This document shows, one piece after another, positions 45,733-60,322 of a stretch of DNA of 64,000 nucleotides. The notes below the pieces were generated by a model that was given only the letters and a program-made list of their open reading frames with translations, made no database searches and had not been told where the DNA came from. Both the position numbers and the translations under genes were made by a program. Origin of the DNA: a virus; the IMG/VR virus record IMGVR_UViG_3300020477_000990, positions 1 through 64,000 of that record. One strand, 5' to 3'. Every line of letters begins with the position of its first letter. The stretch's first letter is position 1.

Positions 45733-48700
45733 ATGGCTGATAACACGGGTTCAAATTTAGGTACAGGACACATAGTCTTTAGTTCAAAAGTAGGTAATGA
45801 TCTACAATTTAAAACACTAGTAGGTGGTACTAATATAACATTGGCAAATACTGCCTCAGAAATAACTATTACTGCATCAAATGATACTACTGCTTTAAAT
45901 ATAGGTACAGGATCAGGTATATTTACTAGTAAAGCAGGCGATAATATACAGTTTAAATCGCTTATAGCAAATGCGGCATCTGGTATTAGTTTAACTTCAA
46001 ATGCAGATGATTTAACTTTTCAATTAGTTTCAGCAAATGTAGATGCTGGTAAATTAGGTGGTGTAGCGGCATCAGACTTTTTACAAAAATCAAATAACTT
46101 ATCTGGATTGACAAATCTAGCAACAGCAAGATCAAATTTATCAGTATATTCAAAAGCAGAAGTAGATGGCTTTGCAGTCAAAAATAATGCTAATGTATTA
46201 CCATCAGCAGACAATACATGGTCTCTAGGAGATAACTCAAATAGATGGGCGGCAATCTACGCAAATAGATTTTACGGAATGGCAACTACAGCAGGTAGTA
46301 TGGCATCACTTAATGATATTACTGATGTTGATACTTCTGGTGCAGTTAACAATTCAGTATTAAAATGGAATTCATCAACATCACAATGGGAAATTGGTGT
46401 TGACTCAGGTGGAGGCGGTGGATCGTCTAGCTTCGTTGGTTTATCAGATACACCTGGAAACTTTACAGGTGACGCAAACAAATATGTAAGAGTTAATGCA
46501 GGAGAAACTGCATTAGAATTTGTAGATGGTGTTGCAACAGAGGCTTATGTAACAACACAGGTTAATAATTTAATTGACTCGGCACCTGGAGCATTAGATA
46601 CATTAAACGAATTAGCGGCGGCGTTAGGTGATGATGCAAACTTCTCAACAACAATAACAAATTCAATTGCAACAAAACTAGCAACAGCAGATTTTAACAA
46701 TACATTTGATACAAGATTTGGAAATAAAAATATTAGTGACTTATCAAACGTACACACAGCGGCACCAACAGATGGACAAGTACTTTCTTGGGATAATGGA
46801 AATTCAAGATGGGCACCATCAAATGTAGGTTCAGGAGATATTACAAGAGTTAATATTACAGCAGGAACAGGGTTAAGTGGTACACAAGATACAACATCAG
46901 GTGATCATACACAAACACTTGCAGTTGATGTTGGTACAAGTGCAGGCAAAATTGTACAACTAGATGGTTCAGCTAAATTACCAGCAGTAGATGGTTCGGC
47001 ACTTACAAACTTGCCGGCGGCTTATACTAATGCAAGTGTAGATGCACATTTAAATCAATCAAATCCAACTTCAGGATTTGTATTAAGTTGGAATGGATCA
47101 GATTATGCTTGGGTTACTAATGCAGGTTATACTGATACAGATTTTGATAATAGATTAGCTACTAAATCAACAACAAATTTAACAGAAGGCACAAATCTTT
47201 ATTATACAGATGCTAGAGTAAACGCAAGAGTTGGAGCATTAGGTTCAGCAAACTGGGATACAGCATTTGGTTGGGGTGACCACTCGAGTGCAGGTTACTT
47301 ATCATCAGTTGCGTTGAATAATTTAACAGATGTTAATACGGCAGGCGTCGCAAATGGAAAAATTTTAAAATACAATGGTACTTCTTGGGTAGTTGCAGAT
47401 GACACAGGTGGTCCTGCAGATACAGATGCGTTAGGAGAAGGTTCAACTAACCTTTACTTTACTAATGCAAGAGCAGATGCACGTATTAGTGCGGCAACAT
47501 TTACTACATTATCAGATGTAGATGCTGTAGTAGCCGGTGATAATGGAAAAATTTTATATTATGATCACGGTACAACTTCATTTAAATGGAAAGTTGATGC
47601 AGGTGGTCCAGCAGACACAGATGCTTTAGCAGAAGGTTCAACTAATTTATACTTTACTAATGCAAGAGTAGATACACACTTAAACCAAAGTAATCCAACA
47701 AGTGGATATGTTCTTTCTTGGAACGGTTCAGATTATGTTTGGGTAGCAAATGGTACACCTGGTGCTATTACAGATATTGTTAATGACGCAACTCCACAAT
47801 TAGGTGGAACATTAGATGCAAACGGTAATACAATTGACATGGGTACAAATGTATTAACAGATGTAAATCTTGGACAATTTATAACAGCACACGGTTGGGG
47901 AGATCATAGTGGTGCTGGATATTTAACAAGTACTGGTGTAATAAGTTCACACACAGATGTACACAATGCGGCGGCAACAGATGGGCAAGTATTAAAATGG
48001 GATAATGCGAATTCAAGATGGGCACCTGCAAACGATACAGATACAGTTTATAGTTCATTTAACTCAGACTTTGATACAAGATTAACAGCAAAAGACACAG
48101 GTGATTTAAGTGAAGGATCTAACTTATACTTTACTAATGCAAGAGCAGATGCACGTATAGGTGCGGCAAGTATTAATGCATTATCAGATGTAGATACATC
48201 TGGTGCGGCAAATGGTAAAATTTTAAAACATAATGGAACAAGTTGGGTAGTAGCAGATGACACAGATACTGATACAGGGATATTAAATGTTGTAGAAGAT
48301 ACAACACCACAACTAGGTGGAAATTTAGATGTACAAACTAACACAATTAAATCAAGTGATAATGTACAATTAGGTGAAGGTGTTAGTGCAACAGGTATTA
48401 CTGGAACACTTGCAACTAGAGTAAGTGGATTTGGTGCATACTTTGGATTTACTTCAGACAACTCAAAAAGACATTATAATAATGTTTGGCAATCTAAACA
48501 AACATTATCTACAAATGTAGATACAGGAAATAAAAAGCAAGGTTGGCTTATAGATTCAGTTTTAGAATTAGATGGTAATACACACGGTGCTAATGATACT
48601 GCTGATGTTTCAAAATTATTTGGTGACTATAGTTATACAAGTCTTAAATCAAGTAGTGGAAATACAAGTGCTAATGGTGTAGTTGGTCATTCATTCTCGG

Positions 48701-51270
48701 CAGAAGTTACAGATGCTTCAACTAATACTGTTAATACATCACACATTATTGGTATTAAGGCTAGAGCAGGAAACTTTAAAGCAGGAAGTACTGCCACTAA
48801 CGCATATGGTTTATATGTTGACACATCAAAAGATGGTGCGGCAACTATAACAAATAGATATTCAATTTACGCACCACAGTCAAGTGATAAGGCATACTTT
48901 GCAGGTCAAGTACAAATAGGTGCATTTACAATACCAAATACAGATGGTACTAATGGACAATTTTTAAAAACAGATGGTGCTGGAAACCTTACATGGACAT
49001 CAATAACACAAGAAAATTTAGCAGATAATGATACAGATGATTTAAGTGAAGGTTCTTCTAACTTATACTTTACTAATGCAAGAGCAGATGCACGTATTGG
49101 AGCATCAAGTTTAAGTGATATATCAAATGTACACACAGCGGCTCCAACAGATGGTCAAGTACTTAAATGGGATAACGGAAATAGTAGATGGGCACCAGCG
49201 GCAGACACAGATACAGTTTATACTTCATTTAACTCAGACTTTGATACAAGATTAGCGGCAAAAGATACAGGTGATTTAAGTGAAGGAAGTAATTTATATT
49301 ACACAGATGCAAGAGCTGATGCAAGAATTACAAACGCATTAATTGATGAAGACAATATGGCTTCAGATAGTGCTACAAAATTACCATCACAACAATCAGT
49401 TAAGGCATACGTTGATTCACAAGTAGCAAGTGAAAATGAATTAAGCGAAATGAATGATGTAACTTTATCAGGTTTAGCATCAAGTCAATTCTTACAATAC
49501 AATGGTACTGCTTGGGTGAATGTAAGTAGTTCAGCAGTTCCGGCAGGCTCAGATACAGAAGTTCAATTTAATGATGGTGGTGGTTTTGCTGGTGATTCAG
49601 ACTTTACATATAATAAAACAACAAATAAAATTACAGTTGGATCAGTTACAACAACAGGTGCTTCACCGTCTATTTCATCTTCAGGTGCTTTAGGAATTTC
49701 AACTACAGCATCAAACAGCGATATTACAATTACACCACATGGTACTGGTGACATTGTACTTGATAGTCAAAAATGGCCACAGGCAGATGGTCCAGCAGGT
49801 TCATATTTAAAAACAGATGGTGCTAGTCAGTTAAGTTGGGACTTGTTAGATACAGATGATGTAGGTGAAGGCGGAAGATTATATTATACAACTGCAAGAG
49901 TTGATCAAAGAATTACAGGACAATGGTTAGTTGATGAAGATAATATGGCATCAGATAGTGATACTAAAATTCCTTCTCAACAATCAGTTAAAGCATACGT
50001 AGACGCACAGATTTTAACAAAAGATAATACAGATGAAATTGCAGAAGGTTCAACTAATCTTTATTATACAGATGCAAGAGCACAGGCAGTTTCAATTAAT
50101 AATTTAGTAGAAGATACTACTCCACAGTTAGGCGGTACACTTGATGCCAACAGTAATACAATTGACATGGGTACAAATATTATTACTGATGCAAAAGTTG
50201 GTAATTGGGATACAGCACATGGTTGGGGTGACCACTCAAGTGCAGGTTACTTAACATCAATTAGTGCAAATTCAATTAATGATACACACATTGATTGGGG
50301 AACAGGTGCTAATCAAGTATCATCAGCTGATGTTCCAGAACAAACAAATTTATATTACACAGATGCAAGAGCTGATGCAAGAATTGGAGCGGCAAGTATT
50401 AATGCATTATCAGATGTTAATACATCAGGTGCGGCAAATGGCAAGATATTAAAACACAATGGTACTGATTGGGTAGTAGCAGATGACTCAGGTGGTCCTG
50501 CAGATACAGATGCATTATCAGAAGGTTCAAGTAACTTATACTTTACTAATGCAAGAGCAGATGCACGTATAGCCGCGGCAACGTTTACTACACTATCAGA
50601 CGTAGATGCTGTAGTAGCCGGTGATGATGGTAAGATATTATACTACGATCATTCATCAACTTCATTTAAATGGAAAGCAGATGCAGGTGGTCCAGCAGAT
50701 ACTGATGCATTGTCAGAAGGTTCAAGTAACTTATACTTTACAAACGCAAGAGCTGATGCACGTATTGGAGCGGCGGATATAGCTGACTTAAACAATGTAC
50801 ACACAGCGGCGGCAACAGATGGACAAGTACTTACTTGGGATAATGGAAATTCAAGATGGGCACCAGCTGATGCAGGTGGTGGTGGAACAACCACAGTAGA
50901 AAGATTTAAAATTAACTATGCAACAAATGGTAACTTACAAAGTATTACAGATATAACATCTGGAATATCAGGAGTAAACATTGATTCAGCGGCAGGTGGT
51001 GATATTACAATTACATTTACAGGATACAGTTATCCACCAGCAGGTATATTATACTTTGGTTACAAATATGCATCAAATGAATATGATATTATGCCTTGGA
51101 ACAAAGACGTTACATTAAGAAAAGTACCAGGCGGTGGATCATCAGGATCTCCAACAGCATTTGGATCAATATCAACAATTTCAATTAAAGCGGCTGAAGG
51201 TGATACTGGAGCTTCAAGATCATTTGGTACAGTTACTCATGCATGGATACAATTGGTAATGGGAGGCTAG
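45733..51270 (+). CDS. Very long repetitive tail fibre protein
   Basis: The 1845-residue protein is made mostly of degenerate repeats. The unit motif, a Y(F/Y)T(N/D/T)AR box, occurs 11 times, usually preceded by LSEGS-N. It alternates with NGKILKHNGTSWVVADD-type, DGQVLKWDNGNSRWAP-type and GWGDHS-type blocks. The N-terminus (MADNTGSNLGTGHIVFSS...) may attach to the tail. The C-terminus ends in a Gly-rich, beta-like domain (SYPPAGILYFGYK...). This repeat style is known from tail fibres of marine T4-like phages. The internal repeats make it prone to recombination, which could vary host range. Confidence 0.92.
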   Translation: MADNTGSNLGTGHIVFSSKVGNDLQFKTLVGGTNITLANTASEITITASNDTTALNIGTGSGIFTSKAGDNIQFKSLIANAASGISLTSNADDLTFQLVSANVDAGKLGGVAASDFLQKSNNLSGLTNLATARSNLSVYSKAEVDGFAVKNNANVLPSADNTWSLGDNSNRWAAIYANRFYGMATTAGSMASLNDITDVDTSGAVNNSVLKWNSSTSQWEIGVDSGGGGGSSSFVGLSDTPGNFTGDANKYVRVNAGETALEFVDGVATEAYVTTQVNNLIDSAPGALDTLNELAAALGDDANFSTTITNSIATKLATADFNNTFDTRFGNKNISDLSNVHTAAPTDGQVLSWDNGNSRWAPSNVGSGDITRVNITAGTGLSGTQDTTSGDHTQTLAVDVGTSAGKIVQLDGSAKLPAVDGSALTNLPAAYTNASVDAHLNQSNPTSGFVLSWNGSDYAWVTNAGYTDTDFDNRLATKSTTNLTEGTNLYYTDARVNARVGALGSANWDTAFGWGDHSSAGYLSSVALNNLTDVNTAGVANGKILKYNGTSWVVADDTGGPADTDALGEGSTNLYFTNARADARISAATFTTLSDVDAVVAGDNGKILYYDHGTTSFKWKVDAGGPADTDALAEGSTNLYFTNARVDTHLNQSNPTSGYVLSWNGSDYVWVANGTPGAITDIVNDATPQLGGTLDANGNTIDMGTNVLTDVNLGQFITAHGWGDHSGAGYLTSTGVISSHTDVHNAAATDGQVLKWDNANSRWAPANDTDTVYSSFNSDFDTRLTAKDTGDLSEGSNLYFTNARADARIGAASINALSDVDTSGAANGKILKHNGTSWVVADDTDTDTGILNVVEDTTPQLGGNLDVQTNTIKSSDNVQLGEGVSATGITGTLATRVSGFGAYFGFTSDNSKRHYNNVWQSKQTLSTNVDTGNKKQGWLIDSVLELDGNTHGANDTADVSKLFGDYSYTSLKSSSGNTSANGVVGHSFSAEVTDASTNTVNTSHIIGIKARAGNFKAGSTATNAYGLYVDTSKDGAATITNRYSIYAPQSSDKAYFAGQVQIGAFTIPNTDGTNGQFLKTDGAGNLTWTSITQENLADNDTDDLSEGSSNLYFTNARADARIGASSLSDISNVHTAAPTDGQVLKWDNGNSRWAPAADTDTVYTSFNSDFDTRLAAKDTGDLSEGSNLYYTDARADARITNALIDEDNMASDSATKLPSQQSVKAYVDSQVASENELSEMNDVTLSGLASSQFLQYNGTAWVNVSSSAVPAGSDTEVQFNDGGGFAGDSDFTYNKTTNKITVGSVTTTGASPSISSSGALGISTTASNSDITITPHGTGDIVLDSQKWPQADGPAGSYLKTDGASQLSWDLLDTDDVGEGGRLYYTTARVDQRITGQWLVDEDNMASDSDTKIPSQQSVKAYVDAQILTKDNTDEIAEGSTNLYYTDARAQAVSINNLVEDTTPQLGGTLDANSNTIDMGTNIITDAKVGNWDTAHGWGDHSSAGYLTSISANSINDTHIDWGTGANQVSSADVPEQTNLYYTDARADARIGAASINALSDVNTSGAANGKILKHNGTDWVVADDSGGPADTDALSEGSSNLYFTNARADARIAAATFTTLSDVDAVVAGDDGKILYYDHSSTSFKWKADAGGPADTDALSEGSSNLYFTNARADARIGAADIADLNNVHTAAATDGQVLTWDNGNSRWAPADAGGGGTTTVERFKINYATNGNLQSITDITSGISGVNIDSAAGGDITITFTGYSYPPAGILYFGYKYASNEYDIMPWNKDVTLRKVPGGGSSGSPTAFGSISTISIKAAEGDTGASRSFGTVTHAWIQLVMGG
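47190..50860 (+). repeat. Degenerate long repeats inside the fibre gene
   Basis: At DNA level the blocks coding for LYFTNARADARI and for NGKILKHNGTSWVVADD recur many times with long near-identical stretches (for example near 48130, 49070, 50530 and 50740). These direct repeats lie in one frame and are separated by variable linkers. Confidence 0.8.
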
Positions 51271-53964: not shown

Positions 53965-53973
53965 AAGAGGATA

Positions 53974-53998
53974 AGTCATTGAAATCATTGGCTTTTTT
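53974..53998 (+). terminator. Terminator hairpin, copy 1 of a duplicated cassette
   Basis: AGTCA pairs with TGGCT (one G-U) with a partly paired TTGAAATCAT loop, followed by six T. The same hairpin recurs at 57507-57531, and both are followed by the same promoter type. Confidence 0.65.
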
Positions 53999-54024
53999 CT
54001 GGCCATTTTTCTGACAAATAATGG

Positions 54025-54052
54025 TTGACAGATTTCTATATGATGCTATTAT
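54025..54052 (+). promoter_or_regulatory. Sigma-70-like promoter, cassette copy 1 (TTGACA-N16-TATTAT)
   Basis: The region ATAATGGTTGACAGA...CTATATGATGCTAT is nearly identical to the one at 57547. It drives the MoxR gene 34 nt downstream. Confidence 0.75.
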
Positions 54053-54086
54053 ATAATTATAAACAAAAAAGCAGAAAGAGGCTAAA

Positions 54087-55178
54087 ATGGTGAAAACAAA
54101 TACAACAGAAACTAGAACAGTTAGACCAAGCGATGTTAAAGCAGAAGTTCTAGCCTGTATAGATGCAAAGAGACCTGTAATGTTATGGGGTCCTCCAGGC
54201 ATTGGAAAATCAGAAATTATTAATGAAATAGGACAAGACTTAAATCGTAATGTTATTGATTTAAGATTGTTATTATTGGAACCAACAGATTTACGTGGTA
54301 TTCCATATTTTAATTCGAAAGCGAATAAAATGGATTGGGCACCACCAGTAGATCTTCCAAGTGATCCTAAAGATAATTCAATATTATTTTTAGACGAAAT
54401 AAATGCCGCACCACAATCAGTACAGGCCGCGGCGTATCAATTAGTTCTTAATAGAAGAATTGGTACTTATAAATTACCAGATGGAGTATCAATTGTAGCG
54501 GCTGGTAATAGAGAAAGTGATAGAGGTGTTACTTATAGAATGCCTTCACCACTTGCTAACAGAATGTTACATATTGAGATGGCTGTTAATTTTGAAGATT
54601 GGCAGGATTGGGCAACCAAAAATGAAATCCATGCTGATGTAGTTGGATATTTAACATTTGCTAAAAATGATTTATATGACTTTGATCCTAGAAGTTCATC
54701 TAGAGCATTTGCAACACCAAGAAGTTGGTCGTTTGTAAGTGATATGCTAGAAACTGGAAAACTTGAAGGTTCAAGATTAACTGATATTATCACAGGGTCA
54801 GTTGGTGAAGGTCTTGCAGTAAAATTTATAGCACATAGAGATGTTGCTGGTAAATTACCTAACCCATCTGATATTTTAAGTGGTAAAGTTAAAAAACTTG
54901 ATACTAAAGAAGTTAGTGCTATGTATTCATTAATTACTTCATTATGTTATGAATTAAAAGATGAATGTGAAAAGGCTCAAAAATCTAAAAAGATGGCTGG
55001 GTGGCATAAAATGGCAGATAACTTTTTGCAGTATATGATGGATAATTTTGAAACTGAAATGGTAGTGCTAGGGGCAAGAATTGCTCTTAAAAATCATCAA
55101 CTACCGTTTAGTCCTAAAGAGCTAAAGAGCTTTAAGGACTTTTATAAGAGATATGGTAAGTTAATCGTTGACGTTTAA
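54087..55178 (+). CDS. MoxR/CbbQ-type AAA+ ATPase
   Basis: The 363-residue protein has Walker A LWGPPGIGKSE (residues about 34-43), Walker B ILFLDEINAAP, the sensor region VAAGNRESD, and EVKLPDGVS-type strands (IGTYKLPDGVS). MoxR ATPases work with VWA-domain proteins in assembly or stress systems. A VWA protein with a metallopeptidase-like domain is encoded 2.4 kb downstream (57605) under a copy of the same promoter. Such MoxR-VWA pairs are known in bacteria and marine phages, but the phage role is unclear. Confidence 0.9.
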   Translation: MVKTNTTETRTVRPSDVKAEVLACIDAKRPVMLWGPPGIGKSEIINEIGQDLNRNVIDLRLLLLEPTDLRGIPYFNSKANKMDWAPPVDLPSDPKDNSILFLDEINAAPQSVQAAAYQLVLNRRIGTYKLPDGVSIVAAGNRESDRGVTYRMPSPLANRMLHIEMAVNFEDWQDWATKNEIHADVVGYLTFAKNDLYDFDPRSSSRAFATPRSWSFVSDMLETGKLEGSRLTDIITGSVGEGLAVKFIAHRDVAGKLPNPSDILSGKVKKLDTKEVSAMYSLITSLCYELKDECEKAQKSKKMAGWHKMADNFLQYMMDNFETEMVVLGARIALKNHQLPFSPKELKSFKDFYKRYGKLIVDV

Positions 55179-55180
55179 TT

Positions 55181-55251
55181 TATCATTATATGGGGACTAG
55201 GTCTACCTCTCTCTGCTCTTTCGGAAGACCGGTCCCCGCCAAATTATGATA
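55181..55251 (+). ncRNA. Strong hairpin with tRNA-like CCA end
   Basis: GGGGAC (55192-55197) pairs with GTCCCC (55232-55237), and GGTCT pairs with AGACC inside it. Outer TATCAT/ATGATA flanks can extend the stem. The stem ends in GCCA (55238-55241), like a tRNA 3' end with discriminator G. No D or T arm or anticodon is present, so it is not a tRNA; it has no T run, so it is not a classical terminator. It separates moxR from the following small genes. Confidence 0.5.
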
Positions 55252-55261
55252 AGTATTGTAT

Positions 55262-55651
55262 ATGGACAAAGTGCTAATATTAATAAAATTAATTTCGTTA
55301 TTATATCCTAAGAAAAATTGGGATAAGAATTCTCATTTTATTTTTACACATCAAGATAGAAAATTAATGAAAGAGTATTTAAAGTCAGCAAAGAAAATGG
55401 GACTTCATAAAATATTAAGAGAAGTGAATTTAATAGATCATGATTTTTTATCTTATGAAAAAGGTGAAGTATATCATTTATATATTGGTCCTAAATATAT
55501 TTGGGATCATGATTATAAAATGCTTTGGAAACCCCATGAAGATAAAGGCATTTGGAAAATAGAAAAAATATTTAATGAAAAAATTTCTCATGTACCTAAA
55601 GTAATGGGACAAAAAATATTAGGTAATTATTCATCGAAAGGTAAGGAATGA
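55262..55651 (+). CDS. Unknown protein
   Basis: The 129-residue protein is Lys/His/Trp-rich (MDKVLILIKLISLLYPKKNWDKN...). ATG 55262 is preferred to an upstream TTG. No motif recognised. It begins a run of seven small overlapping genes between MoxR and VWA. Confidence 0.55.
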   Translation: MDKVLILIKLISLLYPKKNWDKNSHFIFTHQDRKLMKEYLKSAKKMGLHKILREVNLIDHDFLSYEKGEVYHLYIGPKYIWDHDYKMLWKPHEDKGIWKIEKIFNEKISHVPKVMGQKILGNYSSKGKE

Positions 55652-55836
55652 AAATAACATTTTTAGATAAAAAATATGCAACAATGAGATATGAAAAACT
55701 TTTATCTAATTGTGATAAAGCATTATTAGAAGCAGAAGATCAATGGGCTATTACTTATTGGACTAATGTAAAAGAAAAATTAAGAAAAAATATGTCTAAA
55801 TTAGGTTTATTAAAAGGAAGTAAAATAGTTAACTAA
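55648..55836 (+). CDS. Unknown small protein
   Basis: A 62-residue helical charged protein (MKITFLDKKYATMRYEKLLSNC...). It overlaps the upstream gene by 4 nt and abuts the zinc-finger gene. No motif recognised. Confidence 0.5.
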   Translation: MKITFLDKKYATMRYEKLLSNCDKALLEAEDQWAITYWTNVKEKLRKNMSKLGLLKGSKIVN

Positions 55837-56109
55837 ATGGAACAACAATTTAATAACAAAGTATATCCAATTTATAAAAACGATATAGGTGTAAAAGAAA
55901 TACAGATAGGAGTAAAAAGTTTTATGTGTATGGGATGTTCACCACCAGATGATCACCCACACGTCTTTTTAACTATGGGAAATGATGAGTCATTAAATTG
56001 TATCTATTGCAATACAAAATATGTATATGATCATACACTAACATTTAGATATACTAATCCACCTGAGTGCTATGCAGGTGATAATATAATAGGTGAAAAA
56101 AATGAGTAA
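55837..56109 (+). CDS. Small zinc-finger protein (zf-CHCC/NDUFS6-like)
   Basis: The 90-residue protein contains FMCMGCSPPDDHPHVFLTMG followed by LNCIYCNTKYVYD. This is the CHCC pattern (Cys, His, Cys, Cys) seen in the zinc-binding C-terminus of NDUFS6-like proteins. The matching segment in that family reads HPxVFL...CPYCGTxY. It probably binds zinc; its partner is unknown. Confidence 0.7.
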   Translation: MEQQFNNKVYPIYKNDIGVKEIQIGVKSFMCMGCSPPDDHPHVFLTMGNDESLNCIYCNTKYVYDHTLTFRYTNPPECYAGDNIIGEKNE

Positions 56110-56401
56110 AGAAGAACTTTCAGTTTTGAAAAATCATAAGAGAAAGTTTTTAGGAATGCCAGCGGTTTGTGAAAATTATTTTGGTAAAAAGTATAAACAC
56201 AATGTTCATTTTCCTACAAAGAATGTAGCTGAAAATATAGGTAACTGGCTTGAAACAGGACCACAGGGTAAATGGGGTTGGTATTATGAAGCCCATAAAA
56301 CTGATATGGAAATGATGTATGATGAACCAGTTAGAAAAGAACACGTGGTATTATCATTTGAAAATGGAGAAGATGCTTTAATATGCCAAATGAAAAAGTA
56401 G
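56102..56401 (+). CDS. Unknown protein
   Basis: A 99-residue soluble protein (MSKEELSVLKNHKRKFLGMPAV...). ATG 56102 is used because the upstream in-frame codons overlap the zinc-finger gene. No family recognised. Confidence 0.55.
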   Translation: MSKEELSVLKNHKRKFLGMPAVCENYFGKKYKHNVHFPTKNVAENIGNWLETGPQGKWGWYYEAHKTDMEMMYDEPVRKEHVVLSFENGEDALICQMKK

Positions 56402-56763
56402 AAATAGAAGAATATAAAGTTAAAAAAAATAAATCTACTTATCGTAAAAAGAGTAATGAAGAATTAAAACAATTGGCTATTGAATGTTATCGAGGATCAG
56501 TATTTACAAGTTACCAAATACATCAGCAAGATATGAATATGTTGCAATCAATTTTTATGCCATTAGCATTTATGAACCCAGCACAATTAAAAGATACATA
56601 TAAAGATAAGCCTCATATGTATTATTCACACGAGAAAGATGCATTTCCAACTGGAATAAATGGATATGGCTGTTATGGATCTGTAGCATATCTTAATAAA
56701 GAAGATGGAGATCGTTTTAGAAAATACTATAATGCAATAGAAGAAAAACTAGAAAAATTATAA
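56383..56763 (+). CDS. Unknown protein
   Basis: The 126-residue protein (MPNEKVEIEEYKVKKNKSTY...) contains NGYGCYGSVAYLNKEDGDRF. It overlaps its neighbours by 19 and 1 nt. No family recognised. Confidence 0.55.
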   Translation: MPNEKVEIEEYKVKKNKSTYRKKSNEELKQLAIECYRGSVFTSYQIHQQDMNMLQSIFMPLAFMNPAQLKDTYKDKPHMYYSHEKDAFPTGINGYGCYGSVAYLNKEDGDRFRKYYNAIEEKLEKL

Positions 56764-57002
56764 TGCAAATATCATCACACGAATTTATGGAATTAGATCA
56801 AGATTATTATGTGATAGATATACATACAGTTTTTGAATCAAAAGAAGATAAATTAATAGAAGATGTATTAAAAAAACACACAACAGGTTGGTATTATAAA
56901 GCAGGATCATTTTTTGCATTTGAAAAAGCAAAAGATAGAGATATTGTAAAAGGTGCATTGGCTTGGGATAAGTTAACAAAGAGTTTTAAAAAAGATGAGT
57001 AA
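56763..57002 (+). CDS. Unknown small protein
   Basis: A 79-residue protein (MQISSHEFMELDQDYYVIDI...) starting in a TAATG overlap. No motif recognised. Confidence 0.55.
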   Translation: MQISSHEFMELDQDYYVIDIHTVFESKEDKLIEDVLKKHTTGWYYKAGSFFAFEKAKDRDIVKGALAWDKLTKSFKKDE

Positions 57003-57177
57003 TGTATATTACAAGGTTACAGTCACTAAAAACGATATGGAATGTACTTTATATTGGTGGGAAAAAACATATAAAAAGTTAATGGAATCAGTTGACTTAT
57101 TGTATAAATGTGCTAAAGTAGATGCAGTAGAATTAGAAATGGTTACAAAGGAAGAATATGATGAAAATTTTGTATAA
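56995..57177 (+). CDS. Unknown small protein
   Basis: A 60-residue protein (MSNVYYKVTVTKNDMECTLY...) overlapping the previous gene by 8 nt. No motif recognised. Confidence 0.5.
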   Translation: MSNVYYKVTVTKNDMECTLYWWEKTYKKLMESVDLLYKCAKVDAVELEMVTKEEYDENFV

Positions 57178-57186
57178 GGAAATATT

Positions 57187-57507
57187 ATGACAGTAAAAAA
57201 GACAATAAAAGATGTGGTAGAAGAACAGGTCACACTCGCCATACAAGATAAGAAAAAACTAATTAAAAAGGTAACACCATTACATGATAGGTCATGGTAT
57301 GTTAAATGGGTATCCTCTTTTATTATAATAATAGCAATGGCACTTACAGCTCTAGATTGGCATCCGTACAATTTGTTTTTTCATTTAGTTGGTGTAACAG
57401 GATGGGGAATTGTTGGATATCTATGGCACGATAGAGCATTAATGTTATTAAATGGAATAGCCGTTGGTATATTTACGGCCGGAATTATCGGATTTTATAC
57501 AGGGTAA
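57187..57507 (+). CDS. Membrane protein, unknown
   Basis: The 106-residue protein has a charged N-terminal third and three transmembrane segments (about residues 37-53, 58-77 and 82-104). Its stop codon lies within the second terminator-promoter cassette. No family recognised. Confidence 0.6.
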   Translation: MTVKKTIKDVVEEQVTLAIQDKKKLIKKVTPLHDRSWYVKWVSSFIIIIAMALTALDWHPYNLFFHLVGVTGWGIVGYLWHDRALMLLNGIAVGIFTAGIIGFYTG

Positions 57508-57531
57508 GTCATTGAAATCATTGGCTTTTTT
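57507..57531 (+). terminator. Terminator hairpin, copy 2 of a duplicated cassette
   Basis: The hairpin is identical in its 20 stem-loop bases to 53974-53993 and is followed by T6. It begins at the last base of the upstream stop codon. Confidence 0.65.
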
Positions 57532-57546
57532 CTGATCAGATAATGG

Positions 57547-57574
57547 TTGACAGAATTCTATATGATGCTATACT
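57547..57574 (+). promoter_or_regulatory. Sigma-70-like promoter, cassette copy 2 (TTGACA-N16-TATACT)
   Basis: It is nearly identical to 54025-54052, including the CTATATGATGCTAT spacer end. It drives the VWA gene 30 nt downstream. Confidence 0.75.
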
Positions 57575-57604: not shown

Positions 57605-58855
57605 ATGACTTTTAAAACAACAACAAAATCAAAGATTAATAAGAAGCCAAAAATAGTGGCACAAACAGATGATGAAATTCGTGAAAGAATTGTACAAAGT
57701 AGAGTAAGACTTCTTTTAAAACATCCATTCTTTGGTAATCTAGCAACAAGATTGAAACTTAAAAACGCAGATGATTTTTGTCCTACCGCGGCAACTGATG
57801 GTAGACATTTTTATTATAATAGAGAATTTATTACTCCGTTAACACCTGAAGAATTAGACTTTCTTGTAGGCCATGAAGTGATGCATTGTGTTTATGATCA
57901 TATGGAAAGAAGAGAAGGAAGAAATCCTCAAATTTGGAATATGGCAACGGACTATGTGATAAATGGTCAGCTTGTTCGTGAAGGTCTTGGTAAAATGCCA
58001 AAACAAGGATTGCACGATTCAAAATATTATGATAAAAATTCAGATGAAGTATATCAAGATTTAGAGAAAAATGCAGTAGAAATTAAAGTTACTTTAGATA
58101 TGCATATGGATGGTGAAGGTCAACAAGGTAAAGGTGATCAACAAAATCCTGGAGACAAAGATGGTGAAGGTAAAGAAAAAATGCCAGTTATGTCTAAAGA
58201 AGAAAAAGAAAAATTAAAAGACGAAGTTAAAAATGCAGTATTACAAGCGGCACAGGCGGCAGGTGCTGGTAATGTTCCAAAAGGTGTTGAAAGACTTATT
58301 AAAAATATTACAGAACCTAAAATGGATTGGCGTTCGTTATTAGATCAGCATATTACATCAGTTGTAAAATCAGACTATTCATTTATGAGACCTTCAAGAA
58401 AAGGTTGGTCAGTAGATGCAGTATTACCTGGATTACAACCAGAACCAGCAGTAGATGTATGTGTTGCAATTGATACTTCAGGTTCTATTAGTGATAAGCA
58501 GTTGCAAACATTTTTAGCTGAAGTAAAAGGTATTATGGATTCATTCCAAGATTATAAAATACATATATGGAGTTTTGATACAGATGTTCATAATCCAGAA
58601 GTGTTTACACCAGATAAAGATATTACAGATTATAAGCCTGGTGGCTTTGGTGGTACAGAATTTACTGCCAATTGGGAATGGATGAAAGAAGAAGGTATAC
58701 AGCCTAAAAAATTAATTGTATTTACAGATGGTTATCCTTGGGGTTCATGGGGTGATGAAAACTATTGTGATACACTTTGGGTAATTCATTCTAATCACGA
58801 TAAAGATTTAGAAGCACCTTTTGGTGTAACTTGTCATTATGATGAGGTTGCTTAA
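57605..58855 (+). CDS. VWA-domain protein with N-terminal metallopeptidase-like domain (DUF2201 type)
   Basis: The 416-residue protein has a zinc-protease-like helix FLVGHEVMHCVYDHM with HEVMH at 90-94 (HExxH), an acidic/Gly linker at about 165-195, and a VWA domain with the MIDAS DTSGS at 290-294. This fits the DUF2201_N plus VWA-like architecture. It is the expected partner for the MoxR ATPase at 54087, sharing its promoter cassette. Possible roles are remodelling of a protein complex or regulated proteolysis during infection; none is proven. Confidence 0.88.
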   Translation: MTFKTTTKSKINKKPKIVAQTDDEIRERIVQSRVRLLLKHPFFGNLATRLKLKNADDFCPTAATDGRHFYYNREFITPLTPEELDFLVGHEVMHCVYDHMERREGRNPQIWNMATDYVINGQLVREGLGKMPKQGLHDSKYYDKNSDEVYQDLEKNAVEIKVTLDMHMDGEGQQGKGDQQNPGDKDGEGKEKMPVMSKEEKEKLKDEVKNAVLQAAQAAGAGNVPKGVERLIKNITEPKMDWRSLLDQHITSVVKSDYSFMRPSRKGWSVDAVLPGLQPEPAVDVCVAIDTSGSISDKQLQTFLAEVKGIMDSFQDYKIHIWSFDTDVHNPEVFTPDKDITDYKPGGFGGTEFTANWEWMKEEGIQPKKLIVFTDGYPWGSWGDENYCDTLWVIHSNHDKDLEAPFGVTCHYDEVA

Positions 58856-59785: not shown

Positions 59786-60322
59786 ATGAGTTCCACCTTA
59801 ATATTAAATTCAACTGGTTCCCCTTTAAGTTTACTTCCTATTAGTGCGGTTAATTGGCATTTATCAATTAAATTACTTGTTTTAGATAAGTTTAAGGTAT
59901 TAGATGAATATGAAGATTGGATTATCCACAGCCCATCAATGGAAATGAAAGTTCCAGCGGTAATGATAGCAAAAAGATATTTAAATTTAACAAGATATCC
60001 AAAGTTTTCGCGGGGTAATGTATATCTAAGAGATTTATTCACTTGTCAGTATTGTGGTTGTGAGCATGGCTGGAATGATTTAACATTAGATCATGTACTT
60101 CCAAGAGCAAAAGGAGGCAGGTCAGCTTGGGAAAACATTGTGACTGCCTGTCATGATTGTAATGTATCAAAAGGTGATGATAAGTTATCTCCAATGAAAG
60201 ATCCATATAAGCCACATTATTGGGAATTGGCCAATAAAAGAGCCAGGTATCCTGTTAAAGTTGGCCATCATAGTTGGGTAAAATATCTAAAATGGAATGA
60301 AAATCTTATTAATGTTGCATAA
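59786..60322 (+). CDS. HNH endonuclease
   Basis: The 178-residue protein has FTCQYCGCEHGWNDLTLDHVLPRAKGG followed by ENIVTACHDCNVSKGD. The C-x2-C pairs and the H-N-H residues of the nuclease core are complete. Such HNH proteins are common in T4-like marine phages, as free-standing or packaging nucleases. The N-terminal 80 residues are a separate helical region. Confidence 0.88.
   Translation: MSSTLILNSTGSPLSLLPISAVNWHLSIKLLVLDKFKVLDEYEDWIIHSPSMEMKVPAVMIAKRYLNLTRYPKFSRGNVYLRDLFTCQYCGCEHGWNDLTLDHVLPRAKGGRSAWENIVTACHDCNVSKGDDKLSPMKDPYKPHYWELANKRARYPVKVGHHSWVKYLKWNENLINVA

Follow-up and report, generated by a model that had tools for sequence, protein, structure and literature searches.

A phage moxR gene with a promoter block shared with its VWA partner and a 3′ hairpin that may limit the gene's own translation

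We analysed a stretch of 64,000 nucleotides (the window), which forms bases 1–64000 of the virus record IMGVR_UViG_3300020477_000990 (328,149 bases), and in it moxR and a VWA/metallopeptidase gene (the VWA gene), each of which follows a nearly identical block of hairpin, T tract and promoter. The window moxR is itself followed by a hairpin whose loop is complementary to the moxR leader; such complementarity between leader and 3′ flank recurs in five MoxR clades of uncultivated giant phages (A to E, the window belonging to clade A), where it uses different sequences and tracks changes in the leader. This pattern suggests that moxR limits its own translation. We think it probable, if far from certain, that two layers operate here. 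In the first, the terminator-like hairpin and the host-type promoter would make moxR and the VWA gene separate transcription units, similar to the PeSL cassettes of T4-like phages, and the block would belong to a lineage-specific phage promoter that exists in many copies. In the second, the moxR transcript would end in a hairpin whose loop, antisense to the gene's own ribosome-binding site, would pair with the leader of the same transcript or of another one; as the pairing would cover the Shine–Dalgarno/start region, it would limit MoxR synthesis.

Complementarity between the moxR leader and its 3′ flank

The hairpin that follows the moxR stop codon in the window is G+C-rich (−22.3 kcal/mol over 65 nt, z −2.9) and is present as a single copy in the whole record at up to three mismatches (Table 1). 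It has no family match in Rfam, where only three tRNAs reach the gathering score. By duplex energy, the moxR leader ranks first of 19 leaders as a partner of the full loop and second of 96 leaders of open reading frames (ORFs) as a partner of the core loop. In relatives the stem varies and the loop CCTCTCTCTGCTCTT is kept. A further clade A member, L045, whose MoxR is 69% identical to that of the window, came from a promoter-pattern search and not from the MoxR search. Its leader contains AGAGAGAGG and its hairpin, GGGGAGGUC..GACCUCCCC around CCCUCUCUCUGCU, has another stem around the same CCCTCTCTCTGCT loop, with a 9-bp match to its own leader. The VWA gene was not found on the L045 record, where moxR lies near the contig end.

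Two sets of loci were compared. The first combined the window with 31 VWA loci and 80 of 109 MoxR loci; the 91 loci with both genes complete fell into 51 clusters at 90% moxR DNA identity. A match was counted if it was perfect over at least 8 bp, with a score of at least 21, between a gene's own leader (−30 to +6) and its own 85-nt 3′ flank. The second set, fetched after the rule on a gene's own leader as the best match (see below) had been formed, comprised 80 of 513 relatives (50 clusters, 48 evaluable). It was obtained with a clade D MoxR query and therefore tests clade D above all; nor is it wholly new, since at least four loci (L289–L292) lie on contigs already in the first set. The moxR gene satisfied the rule in 17/51 clusters of the first set and in 39/48 of the second, compared with 0/45 for the VWA gene and 3/713 and 5/711 (together 8/1424) for other genes of the same loci. 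All 56 of the moxR matches overlap positions −12 to −1, and 36 of them extend right up to the AUG. A clade B MoxR query returned only two contigs that were already known. We also noted that the clade D lineage (L289–L368) is very common, with 513 relatives in viral contigs from a single query.

Other ways of measuring the same relationship gave consistent results. By energy, the moxR leader came first of 13–25 leaders in 14/14 genomes of clades A, B and C, which were picked after inspection of earlier pairing results. Where a gene is followed by a hairpin with a loop of 8 nt or more, its own leader was the first partner for moxR in 9/19 cases (1.1 expected), for the VWA gene in 1/20 (1.2 expected) and for other genes in 16/293 (18.0 expected). 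With the longest perfect match and no folding, moxR had its own leader as the strictly best partner in 20/51 clusters of the first set (3.5 expected), against 3/45 for the VWA gene (2.9 expected) and 25/713 for the others (43.9 expected); this test also exposed clades D (L269 and L271) and E (L208 and L229). The corresponding counts in the second set were 32/48 for moxR (3.3 expected) and 38/724 for other genes (46.3 expected).

The leaders match the flanks of their own clade (mean scores 19.5–24.4) better than those of other clades (12.1–15). Within clade D, taken without selection, own pairing scored 22.79 against 20.31 when leaders and flanks were re-paired (0/5000 permutations), and with nine clusters at 82% identity 2/5000 permutations did as well. 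Compensatory changes occur at 5/13 stem base pairs in clade D and at 3/15 in clade A. The clade C loop TGAGAGTC is invariant in 8/8 at a mean column identity of 62%. Clade C pairs GACUCUCAC with GUGAGAGUC and clade D pairs GAACACAGCCC with GGGCUGUGUUC, none of which are Shine–Dalgarno letters. On a quickly built MoxR tree of 99 rows, which carries a warning on long branches touching clade B, the feature needs 11 changes (32.4 in shuffles), of which at least seven are forced by starred branches.

The duplicated block and its promoter

The original prediction placed two near-identical blocks 3.5 kb apart, ahead of moxR (54087) and the VWA gene (57605), and this holds in detail. Over the whole window, AAGTCATTGAAATCATTGGCTTTTTTCTG is present twice, exactly, at 53973 and 57506 (0 expected), and TTGACAGAWTTCTATATGATGCTAT at 54025 and 57547 gives the sole matches at up to three mismatches (0 expected); neither pair arose in shuffled sequence. 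Each block runs from the 29-nt hairpin/T-tract stretch through AATGG to TTGACAGAWTTCTATATGATGCTAT, and the two promoter cores differ at one position over 25 nt. As a whole, the block is a 71-nt direct repeat, 77% identical without gaps; another alignment places an 11-nt gap in its middle. With −5.9 kcal/mol and a z of about −2, the hairpin is of modest strength, and it may terminate transcription; the TAA that opens its second copy also serves ORF 57187–57507, which lies upstream, as its stop codon. Both promoters fit a host-type (sigma70, extended −10) consensus at 11 of 12 positions, with a 16-nt spacing and a TG ahead of the −10 element. As a correction to the prediction, the −10 element is the TATTAT or TATACT following ..TGC and not the TATGAT within the string that was quoted there.

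The promoter is not confined to these two genes. In the whole record, its core has six forward copies and no reverse copy at up to three mismatches, and a loosened pattern, again with up to three mismatches, has nine forward and one reverse (none in the reversed control). For TTGACA-N15-18-TATNAT there are 26 forward and two reverse occurrences (7 and 1 in the control). A third, weaker hairpin copy (three mismatches; three copies in total at this threshold) lies at 129785 with its own AATAATGGTTGACA behind it, and at 186010 a different hairpin with a T tract precedes the same promoter. The viral contigs (viral_contigs) hold no match to the exact hairpin motif, and a PHROG search with the genes behind six other promoter or cassette copies and four window ORFs gave no common functional theme. 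The promoter is a genome-wide class, an ordinary phage promoter family, and the block is not a pair-specific switch.

Across the first set, a consensus-like promoter lies within 130 nt of moxR in 45/51 clusters. The VWA gene has its own promoter in 38/46 clusters whose gap measures 20 nt or more, and in 0/5 of those in which the two genes touch or overlap; among shuffled leaders the count was 26/1020. Terminator-like hairpins were found before the VWA gene in 23/51 clusters and before moxR in 4/51 (shuffles 61/1020). As a separate observation, the VWA promoter region of L238, L257 and L237 (clade C) holds GACTCTCAC, which is complementary to the loop of a hairpin just before this promoter region.

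Within one genome, the moxR and VWA promoters have spacers that resemble each other, with 7.79 of 16 matches compared with 5.33 after re-pairing (0/20000 permutations) and, leaving out the window clade, 6.86 compared with 5.20 (2/20000). The likeness extends to other promoters of the same loci (6.3 versus 5.16 across genomes, p = 0.0007; without the window clade 6.52 versus 5.14 of 16, p = 9e-5), 28/33 genomes having another promoter to compare, and the moxR–VWA pair does not stand significantly above them (7.93 versus 6.3, p = 0.17). We therefore read the spacer likeness in these sequences as a genome-wide 'dialect' that does not single out the pair and would agree with cassette copying or with a shared reader; with the copies throughout the record, it makes the block a PeSL-like terminator–promoter unit. 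Co-regulation specific to the pair through the promoter was considered outside the window clade and rejected (pair 6.83, own other promoters 6.52, p = 0.64). Concerted evolution of the two cassettes is suggestive only: in four genomes, re-pairings were as low as the observed pairing in 2/24 cases for the hairpin and 4/24 for the promoter. In L229, L245 and L282, genome-specific spacers behind TTGACA, such as ATAAATCCAATT or CAAATTG, recur at several genes per contig.

For the coordinated expression that had been proposed, these results leave each gene with a strong sigma70-type promoter of its own and lend no support to coordination specific to the pair. The 'equal dose' of the two proteins finds no support, as the additional self-complementary 3′ element on moxR, with none on the VWA gene, argues against simple equal dosing.

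Weighing the explanations

Several observations count against the two-layer reading, and the close relatives weigh on both sides of its first layer. Three contigs (L014, L015 and L016) are such relatives, with MoxR 89–90% and VWA 83–85% identical to those of the window. In favour, they carry the promoter core ahead of both genes (3/3) and so escape the refutation set out for the original prediction, one cassette only in related phages; a similar hairpin stretch with a T tract can be discerned before both genes in L014 and L015. On the other side, the stretch is missing before the VWA gene in L016, the upstream 'terminator' copies of L014 fold no better than shuffles, and a stricter terminator rule scores none of the three contigs at either gene; a looser rule finds one terminator before moxR in L014 and one before each gene in L015. 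As these relatives keep the promoters with weak or absent stem-loops, the promoter is the conserved part of the block and the terminator is likely to be confined to the window. For the second layer, the feature is lacking in 34/51 and 9/48 clusters, and in isolated phages, including PA5oct, RaK2, S-TIM5 and G, the own leader came first in 0/10. The match of L027 may be due to chance, and part of the clade D 3′ element also pairs within the hairpin to which it belongs. The permutation tests take no account of relatedness. Because of one mismatch in its match, the window is placed by the strict perfect-match rule at rank 4/19, which counts as 'none'; only by duplex energy does it reach the first or second rank. 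Finally, clade A leaders are purine-rich and the loop is pyrimidine-rich, which invites chance matches.

This last point, together with the window mismatch, is what speaks for the first layer alone being real, the loop–leader match then being a chance encounter of purine-rich sites with pyrimidine-rich loops. A scan of viral contigs with the 15-nt loop alone returned 119 stretches, which we take as mostly fortuitous. Chance is disfavoured as an explanation of the moxR matches by the rarity of such matches in the VWA gene and in other genes of the same loci; moreover, the pairings of clades C and D do without Shine–Dalgarno letters, and the rule held in the second set and in L045. We regard it as quite improbable. 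A little less improbable, and still unlikely in our view, is that the 3′ hairpin, once released or when read separately, acts in trans as a small RNA, which in clade A would also target the VWA leader and couple the two proteins. The VWA leader is indeed the loop's second-best partner in 4/4 clade A genomes, and both leaders bear similar GAGAGA-type sites in L014–L016. However, these four genomes are closely related, so that the second rank may reflect a single event, and in the ten genomes from clades B and C the rank of the VWA leader varies between 2 and 17 and is mostly low.

Pairing could also join the ends of the mRNA and, with no net repression, protect it or delay translation until it is complete. 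Such an effect would be expected if both ends pair, and circularization is discussed by the authors of the icaR study (PMC3868564). The position of the matches, all of which overlap the start region itself, points instead to translation initiation, and we give this explanation the least credence of the three. Limitation of MoxR translation by pairing of its own 5′ and 3′ regions, on top of PeSL-like transcription units, remains the reading that we prefer. A bolder extension of it, which we hold to be unlikely, is that a fast-evolving self-antisense device doses MoxR in several lineages of uncultivated jumbo phages, and that in the window lineage the loop also reads the VWA leader, so that the pair is co-dosed; it would read both because both genes carry copies of one promoter–leader cassette.

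Comparison with known systems

The transcription-unit layer recalls PeSL cassettes, reportedly treated by Arbiol in 2010 and Comeau in 2014. According to PMC4503421, these cassettes of T4-like phages join an early host-type promoter to a stem-loop and are present in several copies per genome. The window likewise has a host-type promoter in multiple copies; the stem-loop joined to it, modest in the window, is weak or absent in relatives. The moxR–VWA interval varies in length, and shuffling of modules at these copies, as with PeSL, would be hypothetical here.

For pairing between the ends of one mRNA, hok is a known case: the 3′ end of its mRNA pairs with the 5′ region and delays translation, in a toxin–antitoxin system with an antisense RNA. 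The moxR arrangement would share the pairing of the two ends, and no antisense RNA is seen at moxR. Closer is icaR of Staphylococcus aureus, in which, according to PMC3868564, a UCCCC motif in the 3′ untranslated region (3′-UTR) pairs with the gene's own Shine–Dalgarno region, with repression and RNase III cleavage proven experimentally; the authors call their model reminiscent of hok, and the 5′–3′ pairing was termed a singular example when described. In moxR, too, a 3′ motif is complementary to the gene's own Shine–Dalgarno region (with one mismatch in the window). The icaR motif lies in a long 3′-UTR, whereas that of moxR is the loop of a hairpin immediately downstream of the stop codon, comes in five sequence versions and is known from sequence. 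A literature search for published UTR pairing in phage moxR found nothing, which is no proof of absence.

The two proteins themselves are known as a MoxR–vWA chaperone pair of group 2.2 jumbo phages with a proposed role in virion assembly (PMC7824862). The window matches the description there of a VWA protein fused to an N-terminal metallopeptidase and encoded near moxR; promoters and RNA are not treated in the relevant parts of that paper.

The two genes and their surroundings

Family searches upheld both gene identities. The moxR product matches Pfam AAA_3 and AAA_5 above the cut-off, and the product of the VWA gene, 2.4 kb downstream, matches PF13203 (1e-45) and PF09967 (1.5e-21).

Table 1. 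Features of the moxR–VWA region, in window coordinates
Feature	Position	Strand	Remarks
Hairpin and T tract upstream of moxR, possible intrinsic terminator	53973–54001	+	Exact copy of 57506–57534
Second terminator-like stem, overlapping the first (TGGC..GCCA and TTTTT)	53989–54005	+	
moxR promoter	54025–54052	+	TTGACA-16-TATTAT, TG before −10
moxR leader/ribosome-binding segment	54063–54082	+	Complementary to the 3′ loop (−17.4 kcal/mol)
moxR, MoxR-type AAA+ ATPase, 363 aa	54087–55178	+	phrog_1297 6e-103; Pfam AAA, AAA_3, AAA_5
Hairpin after the moxR stop	55192–55237	+	No T tract behind
Pyrimidine-rich loop ACCUCUCUCUGCUCUUUCGG	55205–55224	+	Antisense to the moxR leader
Block of eight small ORFs between moxR and the VWA gene	55256–57507	+	
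Hairpin and T tract, second copy, upstream of the VWA gene	57506–57534	+	
VWA promoter	57547–57574	+	TTGACA-16-TATACT
VWA leader segment	57593–57609	+	Second-best match of the loop among 19 leaders (−14.7 kcal/mol)
VWA gene, DUF2201_N metallopeptidase and VWA-like DUF2201, 416 aa	57605–58855	+	phrog_1314

Among the small ORFs, those at 55837 (zf-CHCC) and 57187 (DUF6552) can be assigned; the others have no convincing family. The shortest distance from moxR to the VWA gene is −1 nt; the longest is about 4 kb in the first set and about 4.7 kb in both sets together. The interval (55256–57507 in the window; loci L014–L368) is a frequent site of gene insertion, and in PA5oct a putative homing-endonuclease gene lies there. 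Proteins related to the VWA/metallopeptidase protein frequently carry the label 'HNH endonuclease', in phrog_1314 and in database records. Pfam finds DUF2201_N and the VWA-like domain and no HNH domain in the window protein (57605–58855), and the label is probably an annotation error that has spread. One gene further on, a 178-aa ORF (59786–60322) has a Cys/His pattern that presumably marks a real HNH-type endonuclease. Upstream of the region, a 1845-aa ORF (45733–51270) with many internal repeats of about 30–300 nt likely encodes a tail-fibre-like or other virion protein.

Significance

Comparative sequence points to a logic like that of icaR in phage genes, written in different letters in five clades and tracking changes in the start region. 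This recurrence amounts to natural covariation, and self-control of moxR could be tested with a small reporter. If the clade A loop acts on the VWA leader as well, possibly as the outcome of a single event, the idea of coordination would be revived at the RNA level. The arrangement also offers a clue to the way in which jumbo phages may keep one member of an AAA–VWA machine in check.

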